64,000 bases of DNA, taken from assembly GCA_003725745.1 (NCBI GenBank), contig RHDP01000001.1:861001-925000 (forward strand), given 5' to 3'. The notes under the pieces were generated by a model. The model had not been told where the DNA came from, made no database searches, and saw nothing but the letters and a program-made list of their open reading frames with translations. Source of the DNA: Streptomyces sp. I6 (GTDB lineage: Bacteria; Actinomycetota; Actinomycetes; Streptomycetales; Streptomycetaceae). The translations under genes were made by a program, and so were the position numbers. How positions within the stretch are numbered: the first letter of the stretch is position 1; every line of letters begins with the position of its first letter. Positions 3,551 through 9,517 of the stretch are shown piece after piece.

Positions 3551-4219
3551 TCAGTCGGTGCGGCCGCGGCGCGACAGCAGCCGCACCACCCCGTCGCCGA
3601 TCAGCTGTACGGCCGTGACCAGGGCGATCAGGATGACGACGGTGACGAGCATGAACTCGGTCTCGAACCGCTGGAAGCCGTAGGTCACGGCCTTGGAGCC
3701 CAGACCCTCTCCACCGACCGCGCCCGCCATGGCCGAGTAGCCGACGAGCACGATCACGGTGGTGGTCACGGCGGCGACGATCGAGGGGAGGGCCTGCGGC
3801 AGCAGTACCTTGCGGATGATCGTCGGGATGGATCCGCCCATGGACTGGACGGCTTCGACCAGTCCGTGGTCGACCTCGCGGACCGCCGTCTCGACGAGTC
3901 GCGCGAAGAACGGGATGGCGCCGACGGCGAGCGGCACGATCATGGCGGTGGGCCCGATGAAGGTGCCGACCACGGCCGTGGTGAACGGGATCAGCGCGAT
4001 CAGCAGGATGATGAAGGGCAGCGAGCGGCCGATGTTCACGAACACGCCGACGGCCTTGTTCACGGGGGTGTTCTGCAGCAGTCCGCCCTTGTCGGTGAGG
4101 ACGAGGAGGATTCCGAGCGGCAGTCCGCCGATCGCGGTGACCACGGTGGACCACAGCACCATGTAGAGGGTGTCCAGCGTGCCCTGGGTCAGCAGGGGCT
4201 GCATCTCCGACCACGTCAC
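3551..4219 (-). CDS. metI: Methionine ABC transporter permease
   Basis: Membrane subunit of the MetNIQ importer. 222 residues with about five predicted hydrophobic helices and the ABC-permease cytoplasmic coupling loop VEAVQSMGGSIPTIIRKVLLPQA near residues 115-140, which contacts the ATPase; the length equals the E. coli MetI family norm of about 217. The GTG start overlaps the metN stop by 4 nt (GTGA), which indicates translational coupling with the ATPase gene. Confidence 0.94.
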   Translation of the reverse strand: MTWSEMQPLLTQGTLDTLYMVLWSTVVTAIGGLPLGILLVLTDKGGLLQNTPVNKAVGVFVNIGRSLPFIILLIALIPFTTAVVGTFIGPTAMIVPLAVGAIPFFARLVETAVREVDHGLVEAVQSMGGSIPTIIRKVLLPQALPSIVAAVTTTVIVLVGYSAMAGAVGGEGLGSKAVTYGFQRFETEFMLVTVVILIALVTAVQLIGDGVVRLLSRRGRTD

Positions 4220-5292
4220 TTGACGGTCTCCTTCACCAGTGCCGCGCCCCGGGCCGCGTTGCTCCGCACGGGCACCGAGGCCGGCGCGTCGTCGTCCACG
4301 ACGTCGACCTGCAGGCCCTGTTCGCGCAGGAAGCCGACGGGTACGACGTTGGTCTCGTAGCCGCCGGGCAGCTCGATGCGCATCCGGCCGATCTGCCGGC
4401 CGCCGACGGTGTCCATCGCGGCTCCGAGGATCGATATGTCGATGTTGTAGGTGCGGGACAGCTGGGAGATCACCGGCTGGGTGGCGGCGTCACCGTGGAA
4501 GGTGACGTCCAGGACGGTGCGGTCCGGTCCCGAGGCGTCCCCGGTGACGGGGAACAGCTCGCGGGCGAGTTCGGAACCGGGCGTGGCGAGCAGCTCGCCC
4601 ACCGTGCCGGACTCGACGATCCGGCCCCGCCGCATCAGGGCGGCGGAGTCGCAGACGGTCTTGACGACGTCCATCTCGTGCGTGATGAGCAGCACGGTCA
4701 GGCCGAGTTCCCGGTTGAGGTCGCGCAGCAGCTGGAGCACGGACCGGGTGGTTTCGGGGTCCAGAGCACTGGTGGCCTCGTCGGAGAGGAGTACCTTGGG
4801 GTCGCCGGCGAGCGCGCGGGCGATACCGACGCGCTGCTTCTGGCCGCCGGAGAGCTGCGCGGGGTAGGCCCTGGCCTTGTCGGCGAGGCCGACGAGGTCG
4901 AGGAGTTCGAGGGCGCGGCGCGAGCGTTCGGCACCGGACACGCCGAGGATCTCCAGCGGCAGCTCGACGTTGTCCCGCACGGTGCGCGAGGACAGCAGGT
5001 TGAAGTGCTGGAAGACCATGCCGATGCGGCTGCGCGCCCGGCGGAGTTCCTTCCCGGCGCGGTTGCCGCGTCCGGCGAGGGCGGTGAGGTCGGTGCCGTC
5101 GACGACGACACTGCCGGAGGTGGGGCGCTCCAGCAGGTTCACGCAGCGGATCAGGGAGGACTTGCCCGCTCCGCTGCGGCCGATGACGCCGAACACCTCG
5201 CCCTCGCGGACGTGCAGGTCGACGCCGTCGAGCGCGGTGATGTCGCGGCCTCGCGACCGGTAGACCTTGGTGAGGCCCGTCGTGGTGATCAC
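4216..5292 (-). CDS. metN: Methionine ABC transporter ATP-binding protein with NIL domain
   Basis: ATPase that powers methionine uptake. Walker A is GRSGAGKSS, the signature motif is LSGGQKQRVGIARAL, and Walker B is LLSDEATSALDPE. The C-terminal ~80 residues (VLDVTFHGDAATQPVISQL onward) form the ACT-like NIL domain that binds methionine and feeds back on transport. I place the start at the GTG giving VITTTGLTKVY (358 residues, near the family length of about 345). An in-frame ATG at 5346 would add 18 residues and cannot be excluded. It is the first structural gene of the operon, 203 nt after a small Cys/Met-rich leader ORF. Confidence 0.93.
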   Translation of the reverse strand: MITTTGLTKVYRSRGRDITALDGVDLHVREGEVFGVIGRSGAGKSSLIRCVNLLERPTSGSVVVDGTDLTALAGRGNRAGKELRRARSRIGMVFQHFNLLSSRTVRDNVELPLEILGVSGAERSRRALELLDLVGLADKARAYPAQLSGGQKQRVGIARALAGDPKVLLSDEATSALDPETTRSVLQLLRDLNRELGLTVLLITHEMDVVKTVCDSAALMRRGRIVESGTVGELLATPGSELARELFPVTGDASGPDRTVLDVTFHGDAATQPVISQLSRTYNIDISILGAAMDTVGGRQIGRMRIELPGGYETNVVPVGFLREQGLQVDVVDDDAPASVPVRSNAARGAALVKETVK

Positions 5293-5495
5293 AGGGGGTT
5301 TTCCGTCACTGTCGAGTGCGCGGCGCGGGGTTCCGCCACCGGGCACGGGGCATGTCGTCTTCGGGGCAGTCGGCGCGGCACGCGGGTGAGCCGGTCGGCA
5401 ACGTGCGCGGGGCAGGCCGGTGCCCTCACCGTCACGGCGGGACGCGGCAGGACTGCGGGGTTTCGCTTCGGGGCGCGAGGCTCAGGCAGGGGCCC

Positions 5496-5582
5496 TCAGA
5501 AGGCGCACATTCGACACATACAACGAGCACCGGGCGTCGTGATCGCCTCGGTCGCAAGGGTGCGGCTGCTCGTCGTGGTCAT
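5496..5582 (-). CDS. Cys/Met-rich leader peptide (uORF) upstream of metNIQ
   Basis: A 28-codon ORF, ATG to TGA, on the same strand as metNIQ. It starts MTTTSSRTLAT and ends CMCRMCAF, so its last eight codons include three Cys and two Met. No Shine-Dalgarno is visible, and a TACTTG hexamer lies 4 nt before the ATG, so a leaderless or near-leaderless mRNA is likely. Ribosome stalling at scarce sulfur amino acids could gate expression of the methionine importer about 0.2 kb downstream. Cys-rich leader ORFs ahead of sulfur genes are known in actinobacteria (mycobacteria); the attenuation role here is inference. It is too short to be found by ordinary gene callers. Confidence 0.7.
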   Translation of the reverse strand: MTTTSSRTLATEAITTPGARCMCRMCAF

Positions 5583-6017
5583 GCGGCAAGTAAAACAGAC
5601 GGACGGACGGGTGGATCACGGGCGTCCGAATAGCGGAACGCGGACCTCCGCCATCCGGATCACGTGCGACGGCCGCCATCGCCGCCCCGGGTGCCTGGGG
5701 CGGCGCGGACAGGGGGGAGAGGCCGGAGACGACGGTGCCCGCGGCGGGTGCGAGGGGAAGGTGGAGTTGTGGTCAACGCCACGGTCACCGTCCGGGCCGC
5801 GGCCACCGTCCCGGCCACCCGCCACCACCCCGGCCACGATCACCGCCCGGGGCCCGCCGCACGGTCGGCGGTCAGACTCGCGGGCGCGCCCTTGAGGGCC
5901 GCACAGCGGGCCGGGTCGACGCCGAGGCGCCCGGTCCGCGCGGTGGACCAGTCCAGCGCAGCGGCTCCTCCGGGGCCGCGCGCATGGTGCCTTTTGGCCC
6001 GTAATACGCTCTCACCC
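5583..6017. other. Divergent intergenic region between leader ORF and membrane gene
   Basis: No gene. It must contain the metNIQ promoter (minus strand) and the promoter of the 6018 gene (plus strand). About 5770-5850 is rich in CCAC/CGGCCACC repeats. Confidence 0.5.
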
Positions 6018-6377
6018 ATGCTTGACGCCCTGACGGTCGCGGTGTCCGCGACCGCTCTCGCCCTCGCCGCCTGGTGCGGTTTCGCAGCGTTCCGGGACCA
6101 GCCGACCAAGGACTGGCACTTCGCCGGTATGGCCGTGGTCACGCTGCTGGCGCTGGCCCAGCTGGTGGTGGGCGTGGTGCAGCTGGCGAGGGGCGAGAAG
6201 GCCGACGAGGGGACGACGATCTTCATCGCCTATCTGGTCGGCGCGTTCGCCGCGGTCCCCGCCGCCGGGTTCCTGTCGCTCGCCGAGCGGACCCGCTGGG
6301 GTTCGGCGACGGTCGCGGCCGGAGCGGTGGTGCTCGCGGTGCTGGAGGTCCGGCTCCACGACATCTGGGGAGGCTGA
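6018..6377 (+). CDS. Small integral membrane protein, function unknown
   Basis: 119 residues with four strongly hydrophobic segments (ALTVAVSATALALAAWCGF, MAVVTLLALAQLVVGVV, FIAYLVGAFAAVPAAGFL, ATVAAGAVVLAVLEV). It has no catalytic motif and no recognised family beyond the actinobacterial integral membrane type. The ATG has no Shine-Dalgarno; a TACGCT hexamer at positions -13 to -8 suggests a leaderless transcript. It is followed after 1 nt by another membrane protein, so the two are probably co-translated and may form a complex. Confidence 0.75.
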   Translation: MLDALTVAVSATALALAAWCGFAAFRDQPTKDWHFAGMAVVTLLALAQLVVGVVQLARGEKADEGTTIFIAYLVGAFAAVPAAGFLSLAERTRWGSATVAAGAVVLAVLEVRLHDIWGG

Positions 6378-6378
6378 G

Positions 6379-6831
6379 GTGGCCGGAGAGACCAGGGCGA
6401 CGGGTGCGACCCGGGCGGCCGGAACCGCCGTGCCGGAGGCACCGGGGGCCCGGCTGGTCAGGGGCCCGGGGCTGCTGCTGGTGTGGCTGTACGGGGTGAT
6501 GTCGGTGGGCGCCGTGTCGCGTTCGGTGTACCAGATCGCCACCGAGTACGACCGCGCCCCCCTCGCGTACACGCTCTCGGCGATCGCCGCGGTGGTGTAC
6601 GCGTTCATCACGTACACCCTGTTCCGCGGCGGGGAGAGGGCCCGCAGGGCGGCCCTGGTCTGCTGCGCCGCGGAGCTGGTGGGCGTCCTGACCGTGGGTA
6701 CGTGGACACTGGTGGACCCCTCCGCCTTCCCGGACGCCACGGTCTGGTCGGACTACGGCATGGGGTACCTCTTCATCCCGGTGCTGCTGCCCGTGACCGG
6801 AATGCTCTGGCTGCGCCGGGCCCGGCGCTGA
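6379..6831 (+). CDS. Integral membrane protein, function unknown
   Basis: 150 residues. An Ala/Gly/Thr-rich N-terminus of about 28 residues precedes four predicted transmembrane helices (LLLVWLYGVMSVGAVS, YTLSAIAAVVYAFITYTLF, AALVCCAAELVGVLTVG, YLFIPVLLPVTGMLWL). The conserved-looking WSDYGMGYLF segment lies before the last helix. The GTG start is one base after the stop of the preceding membrane protein, so the pair is an operon. I recognise it only as a Streptomyces conserved membrane protein. Confidence 0.75.
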   Translation: MAGETRATGATRAAGTAVPEAPGARLVRGPGLLLVWLYGVMSVGAVSRSVYQIATEYDRAPLAYTLSAIAAVVYAFITYTLFRGGERARRAALVCCAAELVGVLTVGTWTLVDPSAFPDATVWSDYGMGYLFIPVLLPVTGMLWLRRARR

Positions 6832-6834
6832 ACC

Positions 6835-6858
6835 GGGCCCCGCTCGCGGAGCGGGCCC
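6835..6858. terminator. GC hairpin between convergent genes
   Basis: Arms GGGCCC(C)GCTC and GAGCGGGCCC around a GCG loop, placed between a plus-strand gene ending at 6831 and a minus-strand gene ending at 6912. It could act in both directions. Confidence 0.55.
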
Positions 6859-6911
6859 CTCAGCGAGGGGCCGACGCATGTGCCGGACCGGCTCTCGCCG
6901 GCCGCGCGGGA

Positions 6912-7436
6912 CTACGCGCTGGTGGCGAACCTCCCCTCGGCCCGGGCCGAGGGCACCGCGGCCGCGTCCTTCTCCATCGTGACGAGCGTCAGCCTCGGGT
7001 TCATCACCCGGGTGGACACGGGCGTGTAGCCGTGGCCGCGGTAGAGGCGCAGATTCCGCTCGCTGCGGTGGCCGGTGAGCAGCTGGAAGCGGCGGGCCGC
7101 GGACTCGCCCGCGAAATGCGCCTCGATGGCGTCGAGCAGCCGGCCGCCCAGTCCGTGGCGCTGCATCCGGGGGTGGACGATGAGCTTGCCGATCGTGGCG
7201 ATGCCCTCGCCGCCGGCCTCGCCGCGTACGGAGGCCACCACCTCGTCGCCGAGGCGGGCCACCAGGGCGTGGCCCCGGTCGAGTTCGGCGCGGAGTTCGG
7301 CGAGCGTCTGGGTGAGCGGTTCGATACGGTAGTCGCCGTAGAGTTCGGCCTCGCTCTGGTAGCACAGGTACTGCAGCTTGAGGATCTGTTCGGCGTCCTC
7401 CGCCGTTGCCGCTGAGATGGTCACGCTCATGCCCAT
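6912..7436 (-). CDS. GNAT family N-acetyltransferase
   Basis: A 174-residue acetyltransferase. Motif A, the acetyl-CoA pyrophosphate loop, is present as IGKLIVHPRMQRHGLGGRLLDAIE, followed by LLTGHRSERNLRLYRGHGY, the usual Asn-x-x-x-Tyr region of small-molecule GNATs. The ATG at 7436 has GGGAGG 9 nt upstream; a second ATG two codons later is possible. It begins 35 nt after the stop of the broken sigma-factor gene on the same strand. The substrate is unknown. Confidence 0.82.
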   Translation of the reverse strand: MGMSVTISAATAEDAEQILKLQYLCYQSEAELYGDYRIEPLTQTLAELRAELDRGHALVARLGDEVVASVRGEAGGEGIATIGKLIVHPRMQRHGLGGRLLDAIEAHFAGESAARRFQLLTGHRSERNLRLYRGHGYTPVSTRVMNPRLTLVTMEKDAAAVPSARAEGRFATSA

Positions 7437-7471
7437 GTGCGCATGCCTCCCGCTCACCCGCCGCCCGGTTG

Positions 7472-8013
7472 TCACCGCTCCTTTCCCCCAAGTTCAGGAG
7501 CAGCAACCTCTGTAGCGAGCATTCTGCGCAAGCATCCGAGGCAACGGGAACGCATCGGTCCCAGACTTCCCTGTGAGATTCCCAACTCTCCTGCGATTTC
7601 GCGGTAGGTGGGGTCCTCCGGCGCCAGCATCGCGGTCAGCAGCCGGCGGCACCGCCCCGGTGCGCGGGCGACCGCGGCTCTCAGGGCACGCCGTCGTTCC
7701 GCGACGAGCGCGGCCCGTTCGGGGCAGGCGGCGGGTCCCGCGGCGGGCTCGGCCGGGTAGGGGTGTTCGCGCTGGGAGCGGGACCGGGCGCGGCGGGCCT
7801 CGTCCCGCACGGCCCCGCCACCCAGCCGACGGCGTCGGGCGGCGGGCCCTCGGTGCCGAGCAGTTCCAGGAGCCGCACCCAGACGGACTGTTCGAGGTCA
7901 CCCGGGTCCAGGGCGCCGCCGTGCGCCTCGGCGCTCGCCTCCGCGGCGACGAGCGGCCAGAGATCGCGCACGAGCGCGCCGGTGGTCCCGGGTGCCACGG
8001 CGCCGGGTGCCAT
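7472..8013 (-). pseudogene. Sigma-70 family RNA polymerase sigma factor, apparent frameshift
   Basis: Two overlapping frames together make one small sigma factor. The upstream part reads DLWPLVAAEASAEAHGGALDPGDLEQSVWVRLLELLG (region 2-like) and continues to VGWVAG. The sequence then resumes in the next frame as VRDEARRARSRSQREHPY and ends with a region-4 helix-turn-helix DPTYREIAGELGISQGSLGPMRSRCLGCLRRML. The break falls in a CCCC run (plus strand 7813-7816), and one extra base restores a continuous protein of about 180 residues. The start is uncertain; the ATG at 8013 is used. Region-4 similarity is clear; the promoter specificity is not. Confidence 0.7.
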
Positions 8014-8333
8014 ACCCCGGGTGCCACGGCACCGGAAGCCTCCGCGGCGGCACGGGCACCGCCCGCGTTCCGGCCGGCCCCCGGCCGCGGTCCGGAGCAG
8101 CCCCGGGCGACGGTCGCGGTCCGGAGCGCCATGGTGCTCCGCCGGGTGGCGGCGGAGGGTGGGGCGGAGTCCTCTTCGCACGGTGTCATGCCGTGCGGGA
8201 CGCCCCGCCGGGCTCTGCGGTTTCCGCCGAGGACCGCTCTCACCCGGCCGTATGACGGCCGTTCGGCCCCTGACGCGGGCCGCACCGGCCGGGCGGCGGG
8301 CCGCCGCCCGGCCGGTGCGCGTGCGGCGGGCCG
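8014..8333. other. Intergenic region
   Basis: No gene supported. Its left part may include the true N-terminus of the sigma factor; its right end carries the glpQ terminator hairpin. Confidence 0.4.
8281..8319 (-). terminator. Perfect hairpin after glpQ
   Basis: 19-bp perfectly complementary arms with a 1-nt centre, 14 nt past the glpQ stop codon. GC only, no T tract. Confidence 0.6.
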
Positions 8334-9517
8334 TCAGCCGTCGACGAAGTCCGCGCGGGCCAGCAGGCCCGTGTCCGGGTTGTCGGTGAAGATCCCGTCG
8401 ATGCCCTGCTCGAAGTACACCGCGAACGCGCCGAAGGCGTCGCCGTACGCGTGCGGGTCCGTCCCGCGCCGGAAGTCGGCGGGCAGGAAGGAGTTCTCGT
8501 TCCGCATGGTGTACGGGTGCAGGATCAGCCCCTGGGCGTGGGCGTCCCGGACGAGCGTGGTGGGCGTGCCCAGCTTGCCGCTCGCGTCCTTCGGCACGAT
8601 GAGGTCGAGGGCGGGGCCGATGCCCTGGGCGAACGAGGCGATCCACTTCAGGCCCTGGGGCGTGACCAGGTCCGCGACCGTGCGCGGGTCACCGGCCTGG
8701 GCGAAGTCCCAGGGGCGGGTGGTCGCACCGGAGAGCAGCACGACGCGCGGCGAGTCCACCAGCTTCGCCAGCCGCTGGATGCTGCTCGGCTCGAACGACT
8801 GGAGGAAGACGGGCGAGTTCCCGCGGTGCCGGCCGTGGCGGCGCAGCAGCTTCGCCAGGCGCTCCTCCAGCCCGAGGCCGATGCTGCGGAAGTAGGTGGG
8901 GTGCTTGGTCTCGACGTGGAGCCACACCGGCCGGCCGCGGCGGCGGCCCTCCTCGTCGGCCCAGCGCAGGACCTCCTCGAAGGTGGGGACCGTCCAGCGG
9001 CCGTCGTACAGGGTGTTCTGCCGGCGGCTCGCCGGGATCCGCTCCTTGGCCCGCAGCGTCTTCAGCTCGGCGAGGGTGAAGTCCTCGGTGAACCAGCCCG
9101 TGATGCCGGTGCCGTCCACCGACCTGGTCGTCCGGCGTGAGGCGAACTCGGGACGCGAGGCGACGTCGGTGGTGCCGGAGATGTCGTTCTCGTGGCGGCA
9201 CACCAGATGCCCGTCCTTGGTGGGCACCAGGTCCTGCTCGATGACGTGCGCGCCCATGTCCAGGGCCAGCTGGTAGGAGCCGAGGGTGTGCTCGGGCCGG
9301 TACCCGCTCGCTCCACGGTGGGCGATGACGGTGGGCACCGGCAGCGAGCGGTAACCGGGGCCTCCGCCGTGCCGCTCCCCGCGGGCCCCGCCGTCTCCGG
9401 CGGCCTGTTCCGCGGCGCGCGCCCCGGCGCGGTCGCCATCCCGAGCGCCGCCGACCCGAGCACCGCCGCCCCCAGGACGGTCCGCCGGCCGGGGGTAGTC
9501 TCCGCACCGTGTGTCAT
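8334..9517 (-). pseudogene. glpQ: Secreted glycerophosphodiester phosphodiesterase, apparent frameshift in signal region
   Basis: Hydrolyses glycerophosphodiesters to glycerol 3-phosphate and an alcohol outside the cell. The catalytic domain is complete: [42 protein letters not shown] and IDGIFTDNPD. The N-terminus is in another frame: [21 protein letters not shown], a Tat signal with the twin arginines RR, preceded by AAGGAG. Adding one base within the G/C runs at plus 9377-9389 joins them into about 395 residues. Upstream lie a probable PHO box and a TAGCCT -10. The S. coelicolor counterpart glpQ1 is in the PhoP regulon. Probably functional if the frameshift is an assembly error. Confidence 0.82.

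Follow-up and report, generated by a model that had tools for sequence, protein, structure and literature searches.

The short open reading frame (ORF) that precedes the methionine importer genes metNIQ in Streptomyces sp. I6 is real and strongly conserved, and it is the orthologue of the described leader metL, what is new here being its family-wide anatomy, a nearly fixed CGA-ATG codon pair and the joint Met and Cys content of its end. It is likely to serve as a Met/Cys-responsive attenuator of some kind, probably working as a starvation sensor. In the window, that is, the whole 64,000-nt stretch of DNA that was analysed, the leader runs from 5582 to 5496 on the minus strand (28 codons, ATG to TGA, leaderless), an assignment that draws on the ORF call, on conservation and on the accessible part of the metL report (PMC8079986). 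Its peptide is MTTTSSRTLATEAITTPGARCMCRMCAF, the last eight residues of which, CMCRMCAF, comprise three Cys and two Met. The initial annotation had placed a 28-codon ORF with this ending on the metNIQ strand, which was confirmed in coordinates and sequence alike, and the attenuator-like position that it had noted ahead of the methionine uptake genes holds as well. One ORF in the whole window ends with at least five Cys/Met among its last eight residues, and in 60 two-base-block shuffles such ends average 0.017 per shuffle and never exceed one; a pattern search elsewhere in the genome found no second leader of the same design.

The leader stop is separated by 203 nt from the GTG start of metN at 5292. 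The metN gene occupies 4216..5292 on the minus strand, and its best NCBIfam match, TIGR02314, scores 377.9 bits, under the curated cut-off of 499.7; it is followed by metI (4219-3551, minus strand; best match NF008049 at 200 bits, under the cut-off of 212) and by an ORF that, judged by eye, encodes a MetQ-type lipoprotein. A weak Shine-Dalgarno-like GACGGA (5302..5307, minus strand), the GGA of which is kept in the alignment, is the candidate Shine-Dalgarno sequence of metN. On the other side of the leader, an extended -10 element, TGT-TTTACT (5589..5597, minus strand), stops 6 nt short of the leader ATG, which leaves no room for a Shine-Dalgarno sequence, in agreement with what had been claimed for the leader at the outset. 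Of 216 distinct upstream sequences, 215 contain the element, with 6-8 nt between the end of its hexamer and the ATG, a count that includes one subset of loci in which the extended -10 had helped to choose the ORF. No SAM riboswitch was seen in an Rfam search of positions 4000-9000 with permissive filters, the sole match up to an E value of 1 being a sub-threshold miRNA family, so that this earlier observation, too, stands.

About 50 bp before the leader ATG lies a degenerate palindrome of the GTCC-N5-11-GGAC type (5623..5638, strand unassigned), the window copy of which is imperfect. It recurs in 202 of 237 distinct upstream regions, as against 5/237 and 2/237 in two control stretches of equal length, and it is probably the operator of some regulator. 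Its distances from the leader ATG, about 50, 60 or 71 bp, suggest helical phasing. The best copies read TGTCCGC-NNN-GCGGACA, for example upstream of the leader at loci L154, L205 and L245. The idea that the palindrome belongs to a wider methionine regulon found no support: an exact-pattern search, which misses the imperfect copy of the window itself, returned seven sites in six genomes, two of them at a metN leader, and inspection by eye of the other five (in three genomes) revealed no evident sulfur gene nearby.

The search of the genus with the leader peptide matched 148 of 150 Streptomyces genomes at E values up to 1, with 134 at 1e-3 or better; in all of the 130 loci examined from these 134, leader and metN share a strand and the metN start lies 242-342 nt downstream of the leader ATG. 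Among the remaining 20 genomes, metN was found in 13, of which 10 have readable upstream DNA, with the leader present in 10/10, and three are unreadable there. The seven genomes in which metN was not found comprise six without a convincing leader (two with no match, four with E values of 0.2 to 0.9) and one, 79% complete, in which the leader is present near a contig end. For the 150 genomes this amounts to leader and metN in 140, neither in six, the leader only in one and three unreadable; the same leader also stands ahead of metN in the named Streptomyces records L294-L299. A lack of conservation of the ORF or of its Cys/Met codons in relatives had been put forward as the observation that would speak against the proposal, and when this was tested both proved to be kept, the ORF in these 140 of 150 genomes and the codons as detailed below for the end of the leader.

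Among 150 genomes of the family, profile matches at E values up to 0.05 were obtained in 80, the weakest of them probably often arising by chance, and metN was found in 121. Twenty metN upstream regions were read in other genera, mostly in genomes without a good profile match, and in 18 of them there is a short leader that shares the ending and resembles the Streptomyces leader in its promoter but not in its body (e.g. MTTTANRTPTGTMPAGGRAMCRRMCAR and MFTTAHTSGTAATATGCRRMCRSCQICRMCGC); at locus L254, a promoter of the same type precedes a 50-codon ORF that ends in RRMCGC. At locus L255 (genome G191), only the leader tail ATGTGTCGAATGTGTGCCTGA stands before metN (codons ATG TGT CGA ATG TGT GCC TGA), both the -10 and the usual start being absent, which is apparently a natural deletion following a rearrangement. 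Outside the family the occurrence is patchy, with clear Met/Cys leaders in five of eight loci of one set and in one of the 19 readable loci of a second set, in which L388 was too short, L389 was ambiguous and the metN start was confirmed for only some loci; no such leader was found at the Actinoplanes locus L306. Three loci from another actinobacterial family (L280, L282 and L283) carry a still richer leader before metN, as in VAHGIDMTPQGRVMCRGTRMCGTARMCAMGGMPSMR, a peptide of 36 residues of which 10, not counting the start, are Cys or Met. None of 73 non-actinobacterial metN loci, the base composition of which differs from that of Streptomyces, has an ORF with at least four Cys/Met in its last 10 residues, while the same criterion identifies five of six Streptomyces loci, the leader of the sixth, L298, having fewer Cys/Met.

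Translation of the leader was addressed by a frame test that makes no assumption of an ORF, in which every extended -10 was followed to an ATG and from there to CGAATG(T/C)G. The 162 distinct stretches obtained in this way show 13 different spacings, ranging from 63 to 135 nt, all of which are multiples of three, and none of the 162 contains an in-frame stop, from which it follows that the leader is almost certainly translated. The initial description of the leader as "probably leaderless" is backed by the leaderless transcription start mapped for the S. lividans orthologue, as given in the accessible part of the report (PMC8079986).

The control codons of the window leader read TGT ATG TGT CGA ATG TGC (5505..5522, minus strand), and codon usage at this end was counted over 184 distinct ORFs (170 peptides), with 26 well-coded genes of the window for comparison. 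Among the 183 ORFs that possess a last Met, its codon invariably occupies the third or fourth position from the end and is directly preceded by CGA in 182, as compared with a CGA share of 36 out of 1028 Arg codons in the 26 window genes. The Cys codons within the last 12 positions are likewise skewed, with 365 TGT to 154 TGC, as against 6 to 103 in the same genes. Taking CGA and TGT, as general background, to be slow codons, we read this pattern as sensing at the codon level, through codons at which the ribosome would be slow. The residue after the last Met is Cys at 195, Arg at 49 and His at two of 246 loci. In 169 of 170 distinct peptides the final nine residues include Met as well as Cys (L128 is the one exception, with Cys alone), so that a joint reading of the two amino acids, the initial annotation's idea of one peptide sensing both, is reasonable to that extent. 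The window peptide has no long run of consecutive Cys, its Cys residues alternating with Met and Arg.

The RNA of the region is predicted to be extensively folded. The structure was derived with RNAalifold from 130 such sequences and covariation was counted on 80 diverse ones, so that the count leans towards the structure, which was built from similar sequences. On the minus strand, a helix P1 (5520..5576, arms 5568-5576 and 5520-5528) and two inner helices, P1a and P1b (arms 5544-5551 and 5530-5536), lie inside the ORF; a hairpin P2 (5462..5479; stem CTCGC/GCGAG, outermost pair imperfect in the window) follows the leader stop, and a hairpin P4 (5316..5346) stands just before the metN ribosome site. 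Pairs with both-sided change number three of nine in P1, two of four in P1a, three of seven in P1b, two of five in P2 and seven of eight in P4, and between 88.8 and 99.3% of the cells are paired across these five helices (P2 94.1%, P4 92.4%). Across the 80 sequences, the whole structure beats all 500 shuffles on all five measures and has 89.8% of its cells paired, as compared with at most 55.5% in slid versions, of which the one moved by -2 comes close on two other measures (both-sided-change pairs 20 vs 18; covariation score 0.120 vs 0.100). The variable leader codons (6, 8, 9, 14 and 15) map for the most part to loops or bulges, and an RNA constraint can therefore explain much of the conservation of the N-terminal part of the peptide. 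The eight-base loop of P2, GCCCCGAA, is nearly invariant and is a candidate for binding some partner or ligand; P2 is missing in some genera, e.g. at L199, L202 and L247-L253. A pairing of GTGCGC in the leader with a middle GCGCAC was considered as well and set aside, with just 73.1% of its cells paired.

Between the leader and metN, the 203-nt spacer (5293..5495, minus strand) is C-rich and G-poor and represents a candidate Rho-loading stretch. Its skew in the window, 0.18, is reached by 3.3% of same-sized stretches of the window, and the 26 gene-upstream stretches of the window have a mean skew of 0.005, with two of them reaching 0.18; C exceeds G in the spacer at 247/247 loci, with a mean skew of 0.224. 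The C-richness is not specific to loci with a leader, since six of 12 metN upstream stretches from other families in which no leader was found are as C-rich (0.19 or more). A C-rich spacer fits Rho-dependent attenuation and, together with the lack of a reported typical terminator, makes shielding from Rho the best reading. We favour a ribosome-mediated attenuator of metNIQ that acts through Rho, tentatively and with somewhat less than even confidence, and infer for it the stalling, the involvement of Rho and the direction of control, while the conservation of the leader, its in-frame translation, its codon choice, the RNA fold and the C-rich spacer are results of the analysis. In this model, transcription would begin at the ATG or close to it, and the leader would be read as a leaderless message, at the end of which the ribosome would meet Met and Cys codons that are seemingly chosen to be slow (the rare CGA before the last Met and the mostly rare TGT). 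If charged Met-tRNA or Cys-tRNA were short, the ribosome would stall at these codons and, standing a few codons before the stop, would cover it together with the first part of the C-rich spacer, which would keep Rho from loading and allow RNA polymerase to reach metN. With Met and Cys plentiful, the ribosome would finish and leave, the spacer would be exposed, and Rho would end transcription before metN. Further points run counter to this model: hairpins P2 and P4 fall within the spacer, whereas Rho prefers unstructured RNA; the Cys after the last Met is replaced by Arg at the 49 of 246 loci counted above; and P4, a covarying hairpin next to the ribosome site of metN, points to another switch, either additional or in place of this one.

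Such a switch could be translational, with P4, perhaps aided by a pairing of the Cys/Met codons with TCGACA, limiting ribosome entry at metN, and with a ribosome stalled on the leader loosening the fold. P4 is the best-covarying helix and lies by the metN ribosome site, the DNA before metN, CTCGACAGTGACGGAA, is strongly conserved, and with a stalled footprint at the control codons, opening the metN site is calculated to cost 0.7-1.0 kcal/mol less (36/130 loci), more than footprints at earlier leader positions (0.2-0.6 kcal/mol) or at spacer positions (0.2-0.3 kcal/mol; the same 36/130 loci). The effect is small, however, and the pairing of TGTCGA in the control codons with TCGACA at the metN ribosome site, our first favourite, gained no support in three tests. 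It shows both-sided change in one of six pairs, in a single cell, next to numerous breaks on one side only (one pair alone has 18 A.C), and natural leaders pair with the metN site no better than their synonymous recodings (median z +0.66 at 130 Streptomyces loci and +0.45 at 45 others), a test which is harsh because the recodings are weighted to GC-ending codons and are generally prone to pairing. We consider the translational model unlikely. P4 has also been considered as a terminator without a U-tract, to be countered by some antiterminator formed when the leader ribosome stalls, which agrees with its GC-rich, covarying stem and its position before metN, and with the finding, in the accessible part of a transcript-end study, that S. 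lividans transcript ends often lack U-tracts (PMC6742748). This option is decidedly unlikely, as no conserved alternative pairing was identified (among alternative leader-P4 pairings, inspected by eye, none looked conserved), P4 is followed by TCGACAGTGACGGAA and not by T, and the S. lividans authors, in the part of their report that is accessible, describe no typical terminator (PMC8079986).

The remaining explanations place the signal elsewhere. If, in a TnaC-like arrest, the finished R-M-C end of the peptide bound or sensed methionine, cysteine or SAM while inside the ribosome tunnel, the nearly fixed distance of R-M-(C/R) from the stop, noted above for the last Met of all 183 ORFs, would be accommodated; a peptide-level rule does not, however, explain why the Arg codon itself is fixed as CGA, although an additional peptide constraint is possible, and the residue after Met varies between Cys and Arg while the rest of the peptide differs among genera. 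We give this arrest only a very slight chance. Slightly better, though still improbable, is the view that the palindrome and some regulator are in control with the leader a conserved passenger, or that the leader RNA is itself a ligand-binding RNA of an undescribed kind. Here the enrichment of the palindrome over both control stretches and the extensive fold over the leader are in agreement, but a passenger would not keep its frame over 13 lengths, nor its CGA-ATG and Met/Cys codons over diverged genera, the leader RNA matches no Rfam family, and joint action of palindrome and leader is equally conceivable.

Compared with known systems, the leader resembles trpL, ilvL and leuS of Streptomyces in being a short leader with codons of its pathway (PMC8079986 and PMC1262725, both in their accessible parts). 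It differs from classical attenuators in that an intrinsic terminator/antiterminator pair was not found, and the LEU element of leuA represents translational attenuation, the same sort as the rival model discussed above. In mycobacteria, polycysteine leaderless uORFs reportedly occur ahead of cysteine genes, as described by Canestrari in 2020. These share with the window leader a leaderless short ORF with sulfur codons near the stop, sulfur genes downstream and no intrinsic terminator, and differ from it in having Cys runs without Met codons and in preceding cysteine genes and not metN; a citing paper classes the cysteine uORFs of M. smegmatis as translation attenuation (PMC13236596). The cys-operon leaders of Actinobacteria also have Cys codons near the stop and no terminator, and Rho-dependent termination has been proposed for them in a 2005 survey which, as far as its accessible text goes, found no conserved RNA structures before methionine operons in Actinobacteria (PMC1262725). 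In tnaC of E. coli, which that survey mentions as well (PMC1262725), a ribosome stalled near the leader stop masks access for Rho, as it would do in the model proposed here; there, in contrast, the nascent peptide stalls the ribosome when Trp is plentiful, whereas the window leader is proposed to stall on starvation.

The closest precedent is metL itself (SLIV_29928), listed in 2021 as a methionine-dependent attenuator of metNIQ in S. lividans TK24, with a leaderless start, no typical Rho-independent terminator and a termination called 'unclear' in the accessible part of the report (PMC8079986). The metL peptide, MSTTSDRTPATEATTTPGARCMCRRMCAF, is orthologous to the window leader, lies upstream of metNIQ and is identical to the peptides at L083 and L084, and the initial annotation's opinion that such a leader is "little described" therefore needs correcting. 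The report deals with one genome and mentions 'several methionines and threonines', its accessible text passing over Cys, CGA-ATG, conservation and RNA fold. The words methionine and attenuat- are absent from the main text of the Streptomyces transcript maps PMC6742748, PMC8780764 and PMC4895711, and no other report on the Cys content, conservation or mechanism of the leader was recognised in the open-access literature, subscription papers lying mostly outside that search.

In its most far-reaching form, the proposal is that of a family-wide sensor, in which one leaderless peptide reads both Met and Cys through a fixed slow-codon gate, CGA-AUG, and controls the access of Rho to a C-rich spacer, with neither an intrinsic terminator nor a riboswitch. 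As a complete scheme this is doubtful; if true, attenuators would gain a new design rule, in which a fixed slow codon just ahead of the sensing Met sets its timing. The family-wide conservation of the leader, its translation and the nearly invariant CGA-ATG make terminator-less attenuation in high-GC Actinobacteria testable by a few point mutations.
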